Source: Segetibacter aerophilus (GTDB lineage Bacteria > Bacteroidota > Bacteroidia > Chitinophagales > Chitinophagaceae). From it: DNA of 64,000 nucleotides. This document shows positions 15,894 to 25,749 of the stretch, piece by piece. Each line of letters starts with the position of its first letter. Position 1 is the stretch's first letter. Made by a program: the position numbers and the translations under genes. The stretch covers positions 62,001-126,000 of the forward strand of contig NZ_BJYT01000009.1 of NCBI RefSeq assembly GCF_007991655.1, in the 5' to 3' direction. Under the pieces are notes generated by a model that saw only the letters and a program-made list of their open reading frames with translations, ran no database searches and was not told the origin of the DNA.

Positions 15894-15916
15894 CCGGTTG
15901 CGTCGCACTCTTGTAC
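15894..15916 (-). repeat. Dispersed intergenic repeat, GCGACGC subtype
   Basis: On the minus strand GTACAAGAGTGCGACGCAAC is followed by CGG. It lies between hisF and hisIE, about 43 bases before the hisIE start, in operon orientation. Confidence 0.65.
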
Positions 15917-16000: not shown

Positions 16001-16819
16001 TCACATCCGAACGACAATCCCCTTATCTCTTAAGTACCCTTTCAAATCAGGGATAGTAATTTCTTTGAAATGAAAAATGCTGGCTGCTAACGCTGCGTCT
16101 GCTTTGCCTTGTTCAAAAACATCTGTAAAATGTTCCATTGTTCCGCCACCACCAGAAGCAATAACAGGAACCGGCAAATTTTTAGAAAGCATTTTTGTTA
16201 TATCTAAAGCAAAGCCTTTTTTAGTACCGTCATTATTCATCGACGTAAGTAAGATTTCTCCTGCGCCCCTGTCAACTGCTTCCTTTGCCCAATCAAAACA
16301 TTTGGCCTCTGTCTTTGTGCGTCCACCGTTTAGATAAACATACCATTCCCCATCTTCTTCCTGTTTCGTATCTATCGCTAGTACAACACACTGGGAACCG
16401 AATTCTTTTGCAAGATCATTTAGTAATTGAGGGTTTCTGAAAGCAGCTGTGTTTACCGATATTTTATCAGCTCCGTTTTGTAATAACACACTTACATCTT
16501 CAACGCTTCCTATTCCCCCACCAACTGTAAAGGGGATATTAATCTTATGAGCAATTCGATTTACAAGTTGACTTAACGTTTTTCGTTTTTCAACCGTTGC
16601 GGTTATATCAAGAAACACGAGTTCATCAGCTCCCTGTTGTGCATACAATGCACCTAGTTCTACCGGGTCACCTGCATCCCTGATATTTTCAAAGTTGACA
16701 CCTTTTACCGTGCGACCGTCTTTAATATCGAGGCAGGGTATAATTCTCTTGGTTAGCCCCCCCCGCCCCCTGAAGGGGGAGCCGGAAAGACGTTCACTAT
16801 CTCTTATAAGTTCTTTCAT
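16001..16819 (-). CDS. hisF: Imidazole glycerol phosphate synthase cyclase subunit, with repeat-derived N-terminus
   Basis: 272 residues. From residue 22 onward it is a normal HisF barrel ([14 protein letters not shown] with the first catalytic Asp, [16 protein letters not shown] with the second Asp, [12 protein letters not shown]). With HisH it makes IGP and AICAR. HisF usually begins MLTKR; here the initiator has been replaced by GG, and the 21 extra residues (ending [10 protein letters not shown]) come from a GC-rich palindromic element read in frame. The ATG chosen is the first one upstream and gives [12 protein letters not shown]. No start codon lies between the element and LTKR, so the extension must be translated if HisF is made. 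Length without it is a standard 251. Confidence 0.94.
16755..16783 (-). repeat. GC-rich palindromic element inside the hisF 5' end
   Basis: On the minus strand it reads GCTCCCCCTTCAGGGGGC followed by a run of G and CT. The core is a palindrome, CCCCCTTCAGGGGG. It ends exactly where the HisF initiator codon should be and is translated as GSPFRGRGG. The same layout is found at the hisA junction. Confidence 0.75.
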
Positions 16820-16854: not shown

Positions 16855-16881
16855 TTCCTTTCTAGGGATTAGGGGCTTAGG
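16855..16881 (+). repeat. Degenerate GC-rich palindromic element at the hisA 3' end
   Basis: Read on the plus strand as TTCCTTTCTAGGGATTAGGG followed by GCTTAGG, it aligns with the better copies TCCCTTTAGGGCTGGGGCTT. It overlaps the hisA stop codon (TAA is formed by the complement of CTTA). Divergence makes this copy less certain. Confidence 0.45.
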
Positions 16882-18010
16882 ATCTAAATTGCTTGAGTTC
16901 TAACAATGAAATTTTATTCTCATAAATAGCCTTCCCAATAATTACACCTTTACAACCAATTTCCTGGAGCTGGTCAACATCTTGCAGGGAGCTAACGCCT
17001 CCACTGGCGATAAAAAAAAGATCAGGAAATTTTGAAATGATGTTTTTATAAAGGTCTACAGAAGGGCCTTCCATTTTGCCGTCTTTGCTCACGTCAGTGC
17101 AAAATATCTGTTGCACACCTTTATTTACATACTTTTCTATAAAGTCATAAATCCAAATGTCTGTTGTTTCAAGCCAACCGCTCACGGCAATTTTTTCATC
17201 TTTTACGTCGGCCCCCAAAATAAACTTTTCTGCCCCAAATTGCTGAAGCCACGTGGTAAATGCTGTTTCGTCTTTTACGGCAATGCTTCCTACCGTTGCA
17301 TAAGTGGCCCCACTCTCTAAAACAATGCTGACATCTTTTTCGGTTTTTATTCCACCTCCAAAATCTACTACCAACTTCGTTTTTCCCGCAATTGCTTCGA
17401 GTACCTTCCAGTTTTTTACTGCACCTGCCTTCGCTCCGTCCAAATCAACAAGATGTAGCCGCATTATTTCTGCATCCTCAAATTGCTTTGCGACATCTAA
17501 AGGATTTTTATGGTAAATAGTTTTTTTTGAATAATCGCCCTGTGTCAGTCGAACGCATTTTCCATCGATGATATCTATTGCTGGTATTATTTGAAGCCCC
17601 CCCACCCCTAAAGGGGAGCTTGTAAAAACCTGAGTTTTTTGTTTGGCGTTTCCTATCTCAGTTTCAATTTGTTTTAGCACTTTTGATACATCATTAAAAA
17701 GTTCGTTATTCTCAAAACGTAGTATCTTAATTCCCAACTCTTTCAAATGACCTTCTCTGATTTCGTCATTTCTTTTTACTTCTTCAATTGCATGAATACT
17801 TCCATCTAACTCTATCCCCAACTTAAGTTCATGGCAGTAAAAATCTAGAACATACAAAAACGCAGGATGTTGTCTCCGAAATTTTACCCCCAATTGCCCT
17901 CCTTTCAAATAGTTCCAAAGCAACTCTTCAGCGTCTGTCGTACGATTTCTAAGCTCTTCAGCTTTTTCAAAGATCAAGTTATTAGCCCCATAAAACATTT
18001 CTTTCTTCAC
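16877..18010 (-). CDS. hisA: Fusion: DUF559 endonuclease-like domain + HisA isomerase
   Basis: 377 residues. Residues 1-120 are a DUF559/Vsr-like PD-(D/E)XK domain: TDAEELLWNYL, KFRRQHP (43-49), DFYCHELKLGIELDG with D56, E67 and D69 as likely catalytic residues, and ILRFENNE. Residues 139-377 are a complete HisA barrel (LQIIPAIDIIDGKCVRLTQG with catalytic D146, VDFGGGIKTE, FILGADVKDE, FIASGGVSS), the ProFAR isomerase of histidine synthesis. The linker VFTSSPLGVGG is a translated GC-rich palindromic element. HisA normally starts M-IIPAID; here that codon is CTT, so HisA is made either as the fusion (start GTG at 18010 or ATG at 17998) or from an internal GTG at 17605. I know of no role for DUF559 in histidine synthesis. 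Confidence 0.9.
   Translation of the reverse strand: MKKEMFYGANNLIFEKAEELRNRTTDAEELLWNYLKGGQLGVKFRRQHPAFLYVLDFYCHELKLGIELDGSIHAIEEVKRNDEIREGHLKELGIKILRFENNELFNDVSKVLKQIETEIGNAKQKTQVFTSSPLGVGGLQIIPAIDIIDGKCVRLTQGDYSKKTIYHKNPLDVAKQFEDAEIMRLHLVDLDGAKAGAVKNWKVLEAIAGKTKLVVDFGGGIKTEKDVSIVLESGATYATVGSIAVKDETAFTTWLQQFGAEKFILGADVKDEKIAVSGWLETTDIWIYDFIEKYVNKGVQQIFCTDVSKDGKMEGPSVDLYKNIISKFPDLFFIASGGVSSLQDVDQLQEIGCKGVIIGKAIYENKISLLELKQFRS
17594..17621 (-). repeat. GC-rich palindromic element forming the DUF559-HisA linker
   Basis: On the minus strand it reads GCTCCCCTTTAGGGGTGGGG followed by GGGCTT. It aligns base for base with the hisF copy apart from a shorter stem and C/T changes. It is read in frame as SSPLGVGG, and ends at the position of the lost HisA initiator. 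Confidence 0.75.
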
Positions 18011-18033
18011 CTGTTATACGTTTTAAAATTAAT

Positions 18034-18095
18034 TTCTTCTCGCTCCTCCCTTTAGGGCTGGGGCTTCTTCTCTCTCCTCCCTTTAGGGCCGGGGC
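18034..18095 (+). repeat. Two tandem 31-base units carrying the palindromic element
   Basis: Two adjacent 31-base units (18034-18064 and 18065-18095) differ at only two positions. Each begins TTCTTCTC, contains CTCCTCCCTTTAGGG and ends in CTGGGGC or CCGGGGC. The second unit supplies the last codons (MPRP) and the TAA stop of hisH. Confidence 0.8.
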
Positions 18096-18682
18096 ATCTC
18101 TATAAAATTTTTCAAAATTTGTTCGCCTGCGTTAGCGCTCTTTTCTGTATGAAATTGTACACCATAAAAGTTGCCCTTACTTAAAGCGGCGCTGAAAGGT
18201 TTGGTATAATTGGTCGTAGCGATTGTGTGTTCACCTAGCGAGGCATAATAGCTATGGACAAAATAGCAATAACTGTCTTCTTTTACATTTTTCATTAAAG
18301 GAGACTTTAAGTCGTAGATATTATTCCAACCCATTTGAGGCACTTTTAATTCGGAGCCGCTGCTATCAAACTTAAGTACCTGTTCTTCAAATATGCCTAA
18401 ACAGTCAGTATCATTTTCTTCGCTGTATGCGCACATTAACTGCATTCCCAGGCATACGCCAAGTACCGGCTGTTTTAATTCTTTAATTACCTGATCCAGC
18501 TTTCTTGCCTTTAAATAGTCCATAGCTGTACTGGCTTCTCCAACACCAGGAAAAATTACTTTGTCTGCTGATTGAAGCTCTTCGACGTCGTCAGTCACTT
18601 CCGCCTCCACTCCTATTCTTTCCAGTGCAAATAATACTGATTGAATATTACCGGCATTGTACTTAACTATTTTCAGAACCAT
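18083..18682 (-). CDS. hisH: Imidazole glycerol phosphate synthase glutaminase subunit
   Basis: 199 residues. A class I glutamine amidotransferase with the nucleophile motif VLGVCLGMQLM (Cys about residue 78), the His/Glu motif GVQFHTEKS near the end, and the opening IVKYNAGNIQSVLFALERIG typical of HisH. It feeds ammonia to HisF. The C-terminus ends NFIEMPRP, where the last three codons and the TAA stop lie inside a palindromic element, so the natural end was probably replaced by the insertion. It follows trpA by 72 bases on the same strand. Confidence 0.95.
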   Translation of the reverse strand: MVLKIVKYNAGNIQSVLFALERIGVEAEVTDDVEELQSADKVIFPGVGEASTAMDYLKARKLDQVIKELKQPVLGVCLGMQLMCAYSEENDTDCLGIFEEQVLKFDSSGSELKVPQMGWNNIYDLKSPLMKNVKEDSYCYFVHSYYASLGEHTIATTNYTKPFSAALSKGNFYGVQFHTEKSANAGEQILKNFIEMPRP

Positions 18683-24675: not shown

Positions 24676-25183
24676 TGTCTGAACCGGGATTTAGAAGGAT
24701 TTTTAGGATTGTGTGGAGACATTAGATGATTTGTATTTTTGATTTTCGAGCCTTTTGAATTGCGGGCTTTGAGAACCAAAATTTATAAGAAGCCCGACTT
24801 CAACATTATAAGCTTCTAAATAATTTTTAGCCTGGGCAAGATGAACGCTTTCAAGATTTACTAGTGCCTTTAATTCAACCATAATTTTTCCATCTACTAA
24901 AAAGTCTACTCTTCGTTCGCCTACTTCTAAATTTTTATAATAAACTTTCATATTAAATTCTCTTTCAAATGGCATCTTAATTTCCATAAATTCTATTGCC
25001 AGAGCTCGTTGATAAATTACTTCCTGAAACCCATTCCCTAATGCCGCATGTACTCTCATGGCTGCGCCGATGATTTTTTCAGTGGTTTCTTTATACTTTA
25101 GTTCGGACATGACTGGTTTTAGAAATTAAAGAATGTTGATTTTCTTATAATCCAATTAATCCTACAAAATCATGGTTCAGACA
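24676..25183 (-). mobile_element. Putative GxxExxY nuclease element with terminal inverted repeats
   Basis: The 508-base unit starts TGTCTGAACC and ends GGTTCAGACA, a perfect 10-base inverted repeat. The similarity continues inward: GGGATTTAGAAGGATTTTTA on the left against ATGATTTTGTAGGATTAATT on the right. Inside is one gene, a PD-(D/E)XK GxxExxY protein, in operon orientation and ending inside the left repeat. The left end touches the trpD ATG and the right end supplies the trpG TGA stop. No target duplication is visible. Mobility is inferred. Confidence 0.6.
24703..25110 (-). CDS. GxxExxY family PD-(D/E)XK nuclease-like protein
   Basis: 135 residues. The family signature GFQEVIY is at residues 27-33 (G27, E30, Y33). 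The nuclease core follows: RRVDFLVDGKIMVELKA with D69, E79 and K81 as the D...ExK triad, and Q93 in a following helix (HLAQAKNYLEAY). The end is GLLINFGSQSPQFKRL, standard for the family, and the C-terminal tail lies in the flanking repeat. Family members are widespread in Bacteroidota and unassigned in function. It sits between trpG and trpD, where it has no known metabolic role. All catalytic residues look intact. Confidence 0.88.
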   Translation of the reverse strand: MSELKYKETTEKIIGAAMRVHAALGNGFQEVIYQRALAIEFMEIKMPFEREFNMKVYYKNLEVGERRVDFLVDGKIMVELKALVNLESVHLAQAKNYLEAYNVEVGLLINFGSQSPQFKRLENQKYKSSNVSTQS

Positions 25184-25749
25184 GTTCCCACCAGCCAATT
25201 CCTAATAATCGCTTCGCCATCTGGTGTCAACACACTCTCTGGATGAAACTGTACACCTCTTACATCATATTTCTTGTGCTGCAGACCCATGATTAAGTTG
25301 TTGTCGTCTCTTGCTGTTATTTCGAGTTCTTCGGGGAAACCTTCTTCTTTTACAACCCAGCTATGATATCGTCCAATGGCAATTTGCTTCGGTAAACCTT
25401 TAAACAAAACGTTTTCGGTATCTAATTGGCAAGGGGTTGCTACACCATGGAAAACACTAGAAAGATTTTCAAGTTCACCACCAAATGCCTGTCCTATAGC
25501 CTGGTGGCCAAGGCATACTCCTAGTATTGATTTTGTCGGCGCATATTCTCTAATCACGTTCAGCAATAAACCTGCTTCAGATGGAATACCCGGCCCAGGC
25601 GAAAGAATAATTTTGTCGTATTCTTTTATTTTTTCCAATGGAATTTGATCGTTTCGGTAAACGTCTACTTTTTCGTGCGTGATCTTTTCAACCAGGTGAA
25701 CAAGGTTGTATGTGAAGCTGTCGTAATTATCAAAAACTAATATTTTCAT
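25177..25749 (-). CDS. trpG: Anthranilate synthase component II (glutamine amidotransferase)
   Basis: 190 residues. FDNYDSFTYNLVHLVE, the oxyanion motif LSPGPGIP, the nucleophile GVCLGHQAIGQAFGG and the VQFHPESVLT His-Glu motif are all present. It supplies ammonia to TrpE. The ATG is preceded with no gap by a palindromic element. The final codons GTC TGA coincide with the first bases of the GxxExxY element (TGTCTGA), so the element donates the stop codon. Confidence 0.97.
   Translation of the reverse strand: MKILVFDNYDSFTYNLVHLVEKITHEKVDVYRNDQIPLEKIKEYDKIILSPGPGIPSEAGLLLNVIREYAPTKSILGVCLGHQAIGQAFGGELENLSSVFHGVATPCQLDTENVLFKGLPKQIAIGRYHSWVVKEEGFPEELEITARDDNNLIMGLQHKKYDVRGVQFHPESVLTPDGEAIIRNWLVGTV

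Follow-up and report, generated by a model that had tools for sequence, protein, structure and literature searches.

The window analysed here is a stretch of 64,000 nucleotides of Segetibacter aerophilus DNA, in which the hisA gene begins with a domain of a putative nuclease family, DUF559. How a domain of this kind came to be translated in one chain with a housekeeping enzyme, and whether the palindromic DNA at its borders has anything to do with it, is the question raised by this locus.

The fused reading frame and its borders

The fused DUF559-HisA ORF (16877..18010, minus strand) codes for 377 amino acids; it is read from GTG 18010, and ATG 17998 is also a possible start. The earlier note had claimed a complete DUF559 at the N-terminus of the hisA gene and, indeed, the Pfam profile search places this PD-(D/E)XK, Vsr-like domain (PF04480) at residues 15-119 (17654..17968, minus strand), with an E value of 3.6e-27 and 94.8 bits against a cut-off of 20.6. 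The conserved acidic and His residues are present; D44, E55, D57, H61, E16 and Q35 are 99-100% conserved over 97 DUF559 domains, in fused and free copies alike. The conserved D, the E-x-D and the H, together with the upstream E and Q, are taken here to be the active site, and the domain presumably adopts the Vsr fold. A PDB sequence search with DUF559 gives one match at E <= 1, the endonuclease-like protein 3hrl (E 9.8e-16); the domain is the same as that of the DUF559/YcjD Vsr-like endonucleases (PF04480; PDB 3hrl), and it keeps their conserved residues.

The HisA domain (His_biosynth in Pfam) covers residues 140-367 of the fusion (16910..17593, minus strand); the frame is open throughout the 377 residues and the HisA part has no start codon of its own, in agreement with what had been proposed. 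The linker between the two domains ends in SSPLGVGG, which is encoded by the minus strand of a palindrome at 17593..17622 (GAAGCCCC..CCCCTAAAGGGG..AGCTTG on the plus strand), so that the translated palindromic element postulated between the domains is real; it occupies the position where the start codon of hisA would be expected.

The other border contains two tandem palindromes of 31 nt each, 94% alike: an inner copy (18034..18064, minus strand), inverted relative to 17593-17622, and an outer copy (18065..18095, minus strand), which provides the TAA stop of hisH. The latter gene (18083..18682, minus strand; named from its translation) ends with ...MPRP* inside the outer palindrome. The earlier description of the same element in opposite orientation at the upstream border thus stands as to the inward-facing arrangement, while the single copy has to be replaced by two tandem ones. 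The sequence CCCTAAAGGG occurs without mismatches three times in the window, at 17606 (plus), 18048 (minus) and 18079 (minus), and all three exact matches lie at the DUF559 borders. The earlier interpretation, that a nuclease domain with inward-facing palindromes made a gene fusion at an operon junction, is supported.

A second palindrome of the right-end type is found at the hisA/hisF junction (16754..16785, plus strand), where it encodes 10 residues of an N-terminal extension of HisF and is accompanied by no nuclease; a probable degenerate left end of this element, recognised by eye and with no strand assigned, abuts the hisA stop (16856..16879). The palindrome-coded leader of HisF comprises 21 residues (16754-16819), and HisF proteins of G195 and G200 have leaders which look similar by eye.

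The fusion in related genomes

Ten genomes of the genus Segetibacter were searched, including the one that contains the window; a hisA match was found in nine of them and a fused frame in five of these nine (G000, which is the window's own genome, G199, G198, G172 and G195). The hisH/hisA junction is ordinary and empty of the element in G197 and G098; by eye, no element is seen at this junction in G196, and a short palindrome remnant is seen in G200. In the named collection, eight among the 80 loci listed align from the start of the query (L204-L211). The fused frame is intact in eight sequences: the window, L204, L205, L206, L117 (from G195), L207, L209 and L210. L204, L205 and L206 apparently correspond to G199, G198 and G172, each counted once, and L114 seems to come from the same genome as L205. 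L206 belongs to an isolate genome, Segetibacter koreensis DSM 18137 (NZ_KB893316.1).

An assembly error, which the earlier note had named as a possible cause of the fusion, can be rejected, since the open frame recurs in these eight sequences, isolate genome included. The same note had considered HisA starting at GTG 17605, a codon (17605-17603) that falls within the right-end palindrome; the seven other intact fusions have no start codon at the equivalent position, and as a general HisA start this GTG is discarded. That the fusion is an artefact of assembly or annotation, or that HisA is made solely from an internal start, is highly improbable: this reading can point to the GTG in the palindrome of the window and to ATG codons in the linkers of L207 and L208, but the last 34 codons before HisA contain no ATG, GTG or TTG in L205, and the frame is fused in all eight sequences. 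The corresponding codons of the other seven intact fusions include one to three ATG, GTG or TTG.

Two sequences of the collection depart from the intact form. L208 has an in-frame stop within DUF559 and an HisA that is still open, which indicates that the nuclease is not needed by HisA; in L211 DUF559 and HisA are found on separate frames. Both were left out of the protein alignments and of the dN/dS estimates, L208 on account of its stop and L211 on account of its split frames. For the window and L204, dN/dS is 0.081 in DUF559, 0.022 in HisA and 0.37 in the 26-codon linker; for L204 and L206, the values are 0.063, 0.038 and 0.65, respectively. For the remaining four of the 6 pairs, DUF559 and HisA are saturated at synonymous positions, and the values of the linker lie between 0.6 and 1.5, a range indicating that the linker drifts while its frame stays. 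The DUF559 of the HisA fusion is under purifying selection, with a dN/dS of 0.08 in one pair.

Such strong purifying selection could alternatively reflect domestication, DUF559 being kept for the benefit of the host as a domain of HisA, LeuS, MetH and other proteins; the persistence of the fused frame and the low dN/dS in the HisA group would fit this reading, whereas the in-frame stop in the DUF559 of L208 argues against it, and on the whole it is considered improbable.

Palindromes at DUF559 copies in the family and the phylum

Of 195 family genomes, 95 have a DUF559 match at E <= 0.001 (80 of these below 1e-15), as do 170 of 296 genomes across the phylum; the genome of the window has one match at this threshold. 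The family sample consists of the best-scoring matches, that is, 98 domain hits, 94 of them distinct by DNA, and is not random. A pyrimidine-purine palindrome was sought within 220 bp of the 93 copies having at least 150 bp of flank on each side. It is present on both sides in 64 of these 93 best-scoring copies and on neither side in five; at control positions 500, 800 and 1100 bp further out, both-sided palindromes were seen in 0/88, 1/87 and 0/84 cases. Flanking palindromes, whose consistent absence from relatives would have spoken against the earlier note, are thus present at most DUF559 copies, although one or both are missing in 29 of the 93. Both-sided palindromes characterize 50 of the 61 copies located in open frames of at least 200 aa and 14 of the 32 shorter, free-standing ones. 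Phylum-wide, 22 of 29 copies (from 30 loci) have them on both sides, versus 0/26 at 800 bp.

These figures were obtained with a palindrome rule that was loosened once, and the controls were run with the loosened rule; a stricter rule gave both sides in 52 of 98 copies and missed the CCCTAAAGGG type of the window. With the loosened rule the copy of the window (L001) passes on both sides and the one of G172 (L047) on one side.

Orientation was assigned from the nearest palindromes. Among the 41 internal insertions with palindromes on both sides, 22 have them inverted with the tails outward and one in the reverse arrangement, the rest being mixed or unclear; the 23 non-internal copies include four inverted outward, three reverse, five with right-type palindromes on both sides and 11 otherwise arranged. 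The DUF559 relatives in 42 plasmid records and 2 phage records have identities below 60% throughout. A literature search, conducted mostly without subscription papers and preprints, retrieved no description of DUF559 cassettes with palindromes; in titles and opening lines of abstracts, papers on DUF559 refer neither to palindromic ends nor to fusions with host genes.

Host proteins carrying DUF559 in frame

About two thirds of the 93 best-scoring copies are in-frame fusions to host proteins, of 16 kinds including HisA; seven of these kinds were seen once. Host names were determined on one representative per group, and the remaining proteins were assigned by BLAST grouping and motifs. DUF559 is embedded in LeuS and MetH (two sites each), AroC, IcmF, CinA, adenine deaminase, MetG, IspG/GcpE, an M23 peptidase protein, a Lhr-type helicase, HsdR and an Eco57I-type enzyme; it precedes HisA, ArgB, ThrB and an NTP transferase. 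No Hint splicing domain, as in inteins, was found by Pfam in the eight fused proteins scanned.

In LeuS, site A is upstream of [YF]TTRPDT and site B is upstream of the MPGYAGSSWY motif. Loop A measures 155-243 aa when occupied and 22-37 aa when unoccupied, except for two loops of 55 and 66 aa, which may be remnants. LeuS also contains palindrome-only in-frame inserts, such as PPSPLGEGRGEAG (by eye). Judged by eye, the left palindrome is read in more than one frame, which suggests that insertion happened more than once. LeuS A, LeuS B and hisH/hisA are each known both occupied and empty, as expected of a homing genetic element; these are differences across species, not alleles.

A palindrome-coded in-frame insert, NSPLGAGG, is also seen by eye in TrpA of G200 (L116), while none is seen in the TrpA of the window. 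An HsdR with a DUF559 insert (L002, 786-1140) contains a GIY-YIG domain in frame as well, next to a palindrome-like sequence of another type (by eye); this is perhaps another nuclease using the same in-frame trick.

Phylogeny and signs of movement

The DUF559 tree was built on 97 domains and 106 columns, and with so few columns many forks stay open. HisA copies form one clade (support 100/98) and so do ArgB copies (98/91), as domestication would have it. Conversely, the same DUF559 sits in unrelated enzymes and is patchily distributed among close relatives, which speaks against domestication. The insertions in LeuS, MetH, AroC, IcmF, CinA, adenine deaminase, MetG, the Lhr-type helicase and the M23 protein, nine host proteins in all, fall in a single 49-row clade without any free-standing copy, whose support (93/96) is just below the 95/80 mark; those in HsdR, IspG and the Eco57I-type enzyme lie outside it. 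Host genes are mixed within this clade, which speaks for movement between hosts: AroC of G163 pairs with the LeuS-A copy of G110 (100/88), and the LeuS-A copy of G052 groups with LeuS-B copies (98/79).

A sign of recent movement is a nearly identical pair in G064, where two DUF559 copies are 97.7% identical over 484 bp (BLAST) and their flanks are unrelated, a further point against domestication; the differences are mostly in the first 30 bases, with two in the last ~450 bp (hand count). The first copy is located between a MoxR-like ATPase (by reading) and a DUF58 gene (Pfam), the second between an aspartokinase/homoserine dehydrogenase (by reading) and ThrB (GHMP kinase by Pfam). The DUF58 protein and ThrB share an identical N-terminal leader of 20 residues, MNNNSPSTSAATSSPSGAGG; the ATG of this leader and the stop codon of DUF559 overlap. 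Each of the two sites has left palindromes, and the adjoining left spacers differ; thus the unit that moved was not simply copied end to end, and its target may have been palindrome pairs already in place. L211 has its DUF559 between direct repeats of ~120 bp which span a palindrome pair. No clean duplication of target DNA is visible in G064 and L211. From these two cases, homing into palindromes seems more likely than plain transposition.

On this evidence, the feature in the window is probably one copy of a mobile cassette, formed by a Vsr-like nuclease gene bounded by REP-like palindromes, that persists as an unspliced, in-frame part of a protein. The palindromes of the cassette would often be inverted, with G-rich tails outward, and the cassette would land in operon junctions or in protein loops, the latter presumably exposed at the surface; insertions would survive where translation is not interrupted. 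The upstream gene can take its stop from the left end (the TAA in CCCTAAAGGG). Translation in the nuclease frame, or from a start codon located in the spacer, would proceed across the right end and enter the downstream gene, which has lost its own start; the 377-aa DUF559-HisA protein would be the outcome in the window. As for the mobility, the putative nuclease may drive it: it may nick or cut the palindrome or the target DNA, and the cassette may be copied in during repair, in a homing-like process which involves no splicing.

Palindromes without DUF559

The genome of the window also contains inward-facing palindrome pairs without DUF559, for instance before murG and murC (genes named from their translations), and palindromes resembling these occur in genomes that lack a DUF559 match; the palindromes are therefore not exclusive to the nuclease. 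Loci L034 and L040 show, besides the pairs before murG and murC, one lone palindrome where argC (likewise named from its translation) begins; by eye, argC seems to have lost a start codon near its conserved N-terminus. Searched for in this genome, the palindrome pattern matched at 31 places on one strand and 26 on the other, and its reversed form, the control, at 6 and 12. Over the 195 genomes, with a pattern that does not cover the palindrome type of the window, the median excess of palindromes is 8.5 in the 80 genomes with strong DUF559 matches, 3 in the 100 without any and 2 in the 15 with weak ones (Mann-Whitney p 3e-9, a value uncorrected for kinship and with exceptions to the trend). Indeed, the excess amounts to at least 10 in 12 of the 100 genomes that lack DUF559, and G077 and G157, which lack it too, have 99 and 108 occurrences of the counted pattern. 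The palindromes of the latter two genomes (L158-L173), about 100 in number, are of a related design, AACCCACCCC..CCCCTCC..GGAGGGG, and some form inward pairs (by eye).

Their occurrence without DUF559 in the genome of the window and in those 12 others suggests that another agent may move the palindromes. The palindromes would then be REPIN- or MITE-like, moved by a RAYT or by another enzyme, and DUF559 would be a passenger, or a parasite homing into them, a reading that partly overlaps with the mobile cassette. It gains from the palindrome pairs and the two palindrome-rich genomes just described, and L211 and G064 point to entry of DUF559 into existing palindrome pairs; moreover, REP insertions within some tnpAREP genes keep the frame, according to excerpts of PMC6006769. 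REPINs are resembled also in the paired inverted palindromes, both in the pairs of the window's genome and in the 22 outward-tailed internal copies with their one reverse counterpart. The REPIN/RAYT system differs in its HUH Y1 transposase and in the GT[AG]G foot of canonical REPs (PMC6006769, in excerpt), while a Vsr-like nuclease and other palindromes are found at the DUF559 cassettes. A RAYT moving these palindromes would be expected to have them at its own borders within the genome concerned, but the two strong RAYT genes of the window's genome have, by eye, a different palindrome type, so that RAYT was dropped as the obvious mobiliser; PF01797 has no match in G172, G077 and G081 and only weak ones in G163. 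Elsewhere, two of eight RAYT loci have DUF559-type palindromes on both sides, a small sample that does not settle the mobiliser but leaves RAYT in place as a rival. Taken together, movement by another enzyme appears rather unlikely, if clearly less so than domestication. Genes of 23S-rRNA IVPs were also tried as further cargo of the same palindromes and rejected, with none of eight loci flanked.

Comparison with known systems and implications

Palindromic DNA lying in frame in protein genes is known from the Rickettsia palindromic elements (RPE), which are not known to contain a nuclease gene. The palindrome-only in-frame inserts in LeuS and in TrpA of G200 (by eye) are similar to them; membership is not claimed, as RPE belong to another lineage and are likened here by description.

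The WHO and HO homing genetic elements of yeast are also among the nearest known systems: according to excerpts of PMC7282813, WHO elements resemble inteins but need no splicing. Likewise, in WHO/HO a nuclease gene is located at a housekeeping gene without protein splicing, one end of the host gene is replaced and transposition to other loci occurs (PMC7282813, in excerpt). They differ in having the 3' end of FBA1 as main target and in encoding an intein-related protein with a zinc finger (same excerpts), whereas the DUF559 cassettes involve many host genes, a PD-(D/E)XK domain, palindromic ends, and both N-terminal and internal unspliced insertions.

The wider proposition, that these cassettes represent a new class of autonomous mobile elements found across Bacteroidota, in which a Vsr-like nuclease and palindromic ends home into junctions and loops and evade selection through being translatable from end to end instead of through splicing, rewriting N-termini or loops of essential enzymes, is plausible and somewhat short of probable. 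If true, selfish nuclease genes could reside in essential genes with no need of introns or inteins, and there would be a candidate function for part of the DUF559 family, which is uncharacterised. The cassettes would also represent a natural, repeated domain-insertion experiment, in which leucyl-tRNA synthetase, methionine synthase, chorismate synthase and other proteins accept a unit of ~150-200 residues, and they would explain odd N-terminal extensions in Bacteroidota, among them the leaders ending in GG that were seen in HisA, HisF and ThrB.

Other repeats in the window

Two further repeats were observed in the window. Another inverted repeat, GTCTGAACC.., flanks a GxxExxY (PDDEXK_3) gene at 24677-24710 and 25150-25190 (by eye). 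Finally, the repeat GTACAAGNGAGTGACACAAC occurs at 15897, 23457, 25801, 28504, 44905 and 55884, with these six matches at <= 3 mismatches comparing with 0.01 expected.
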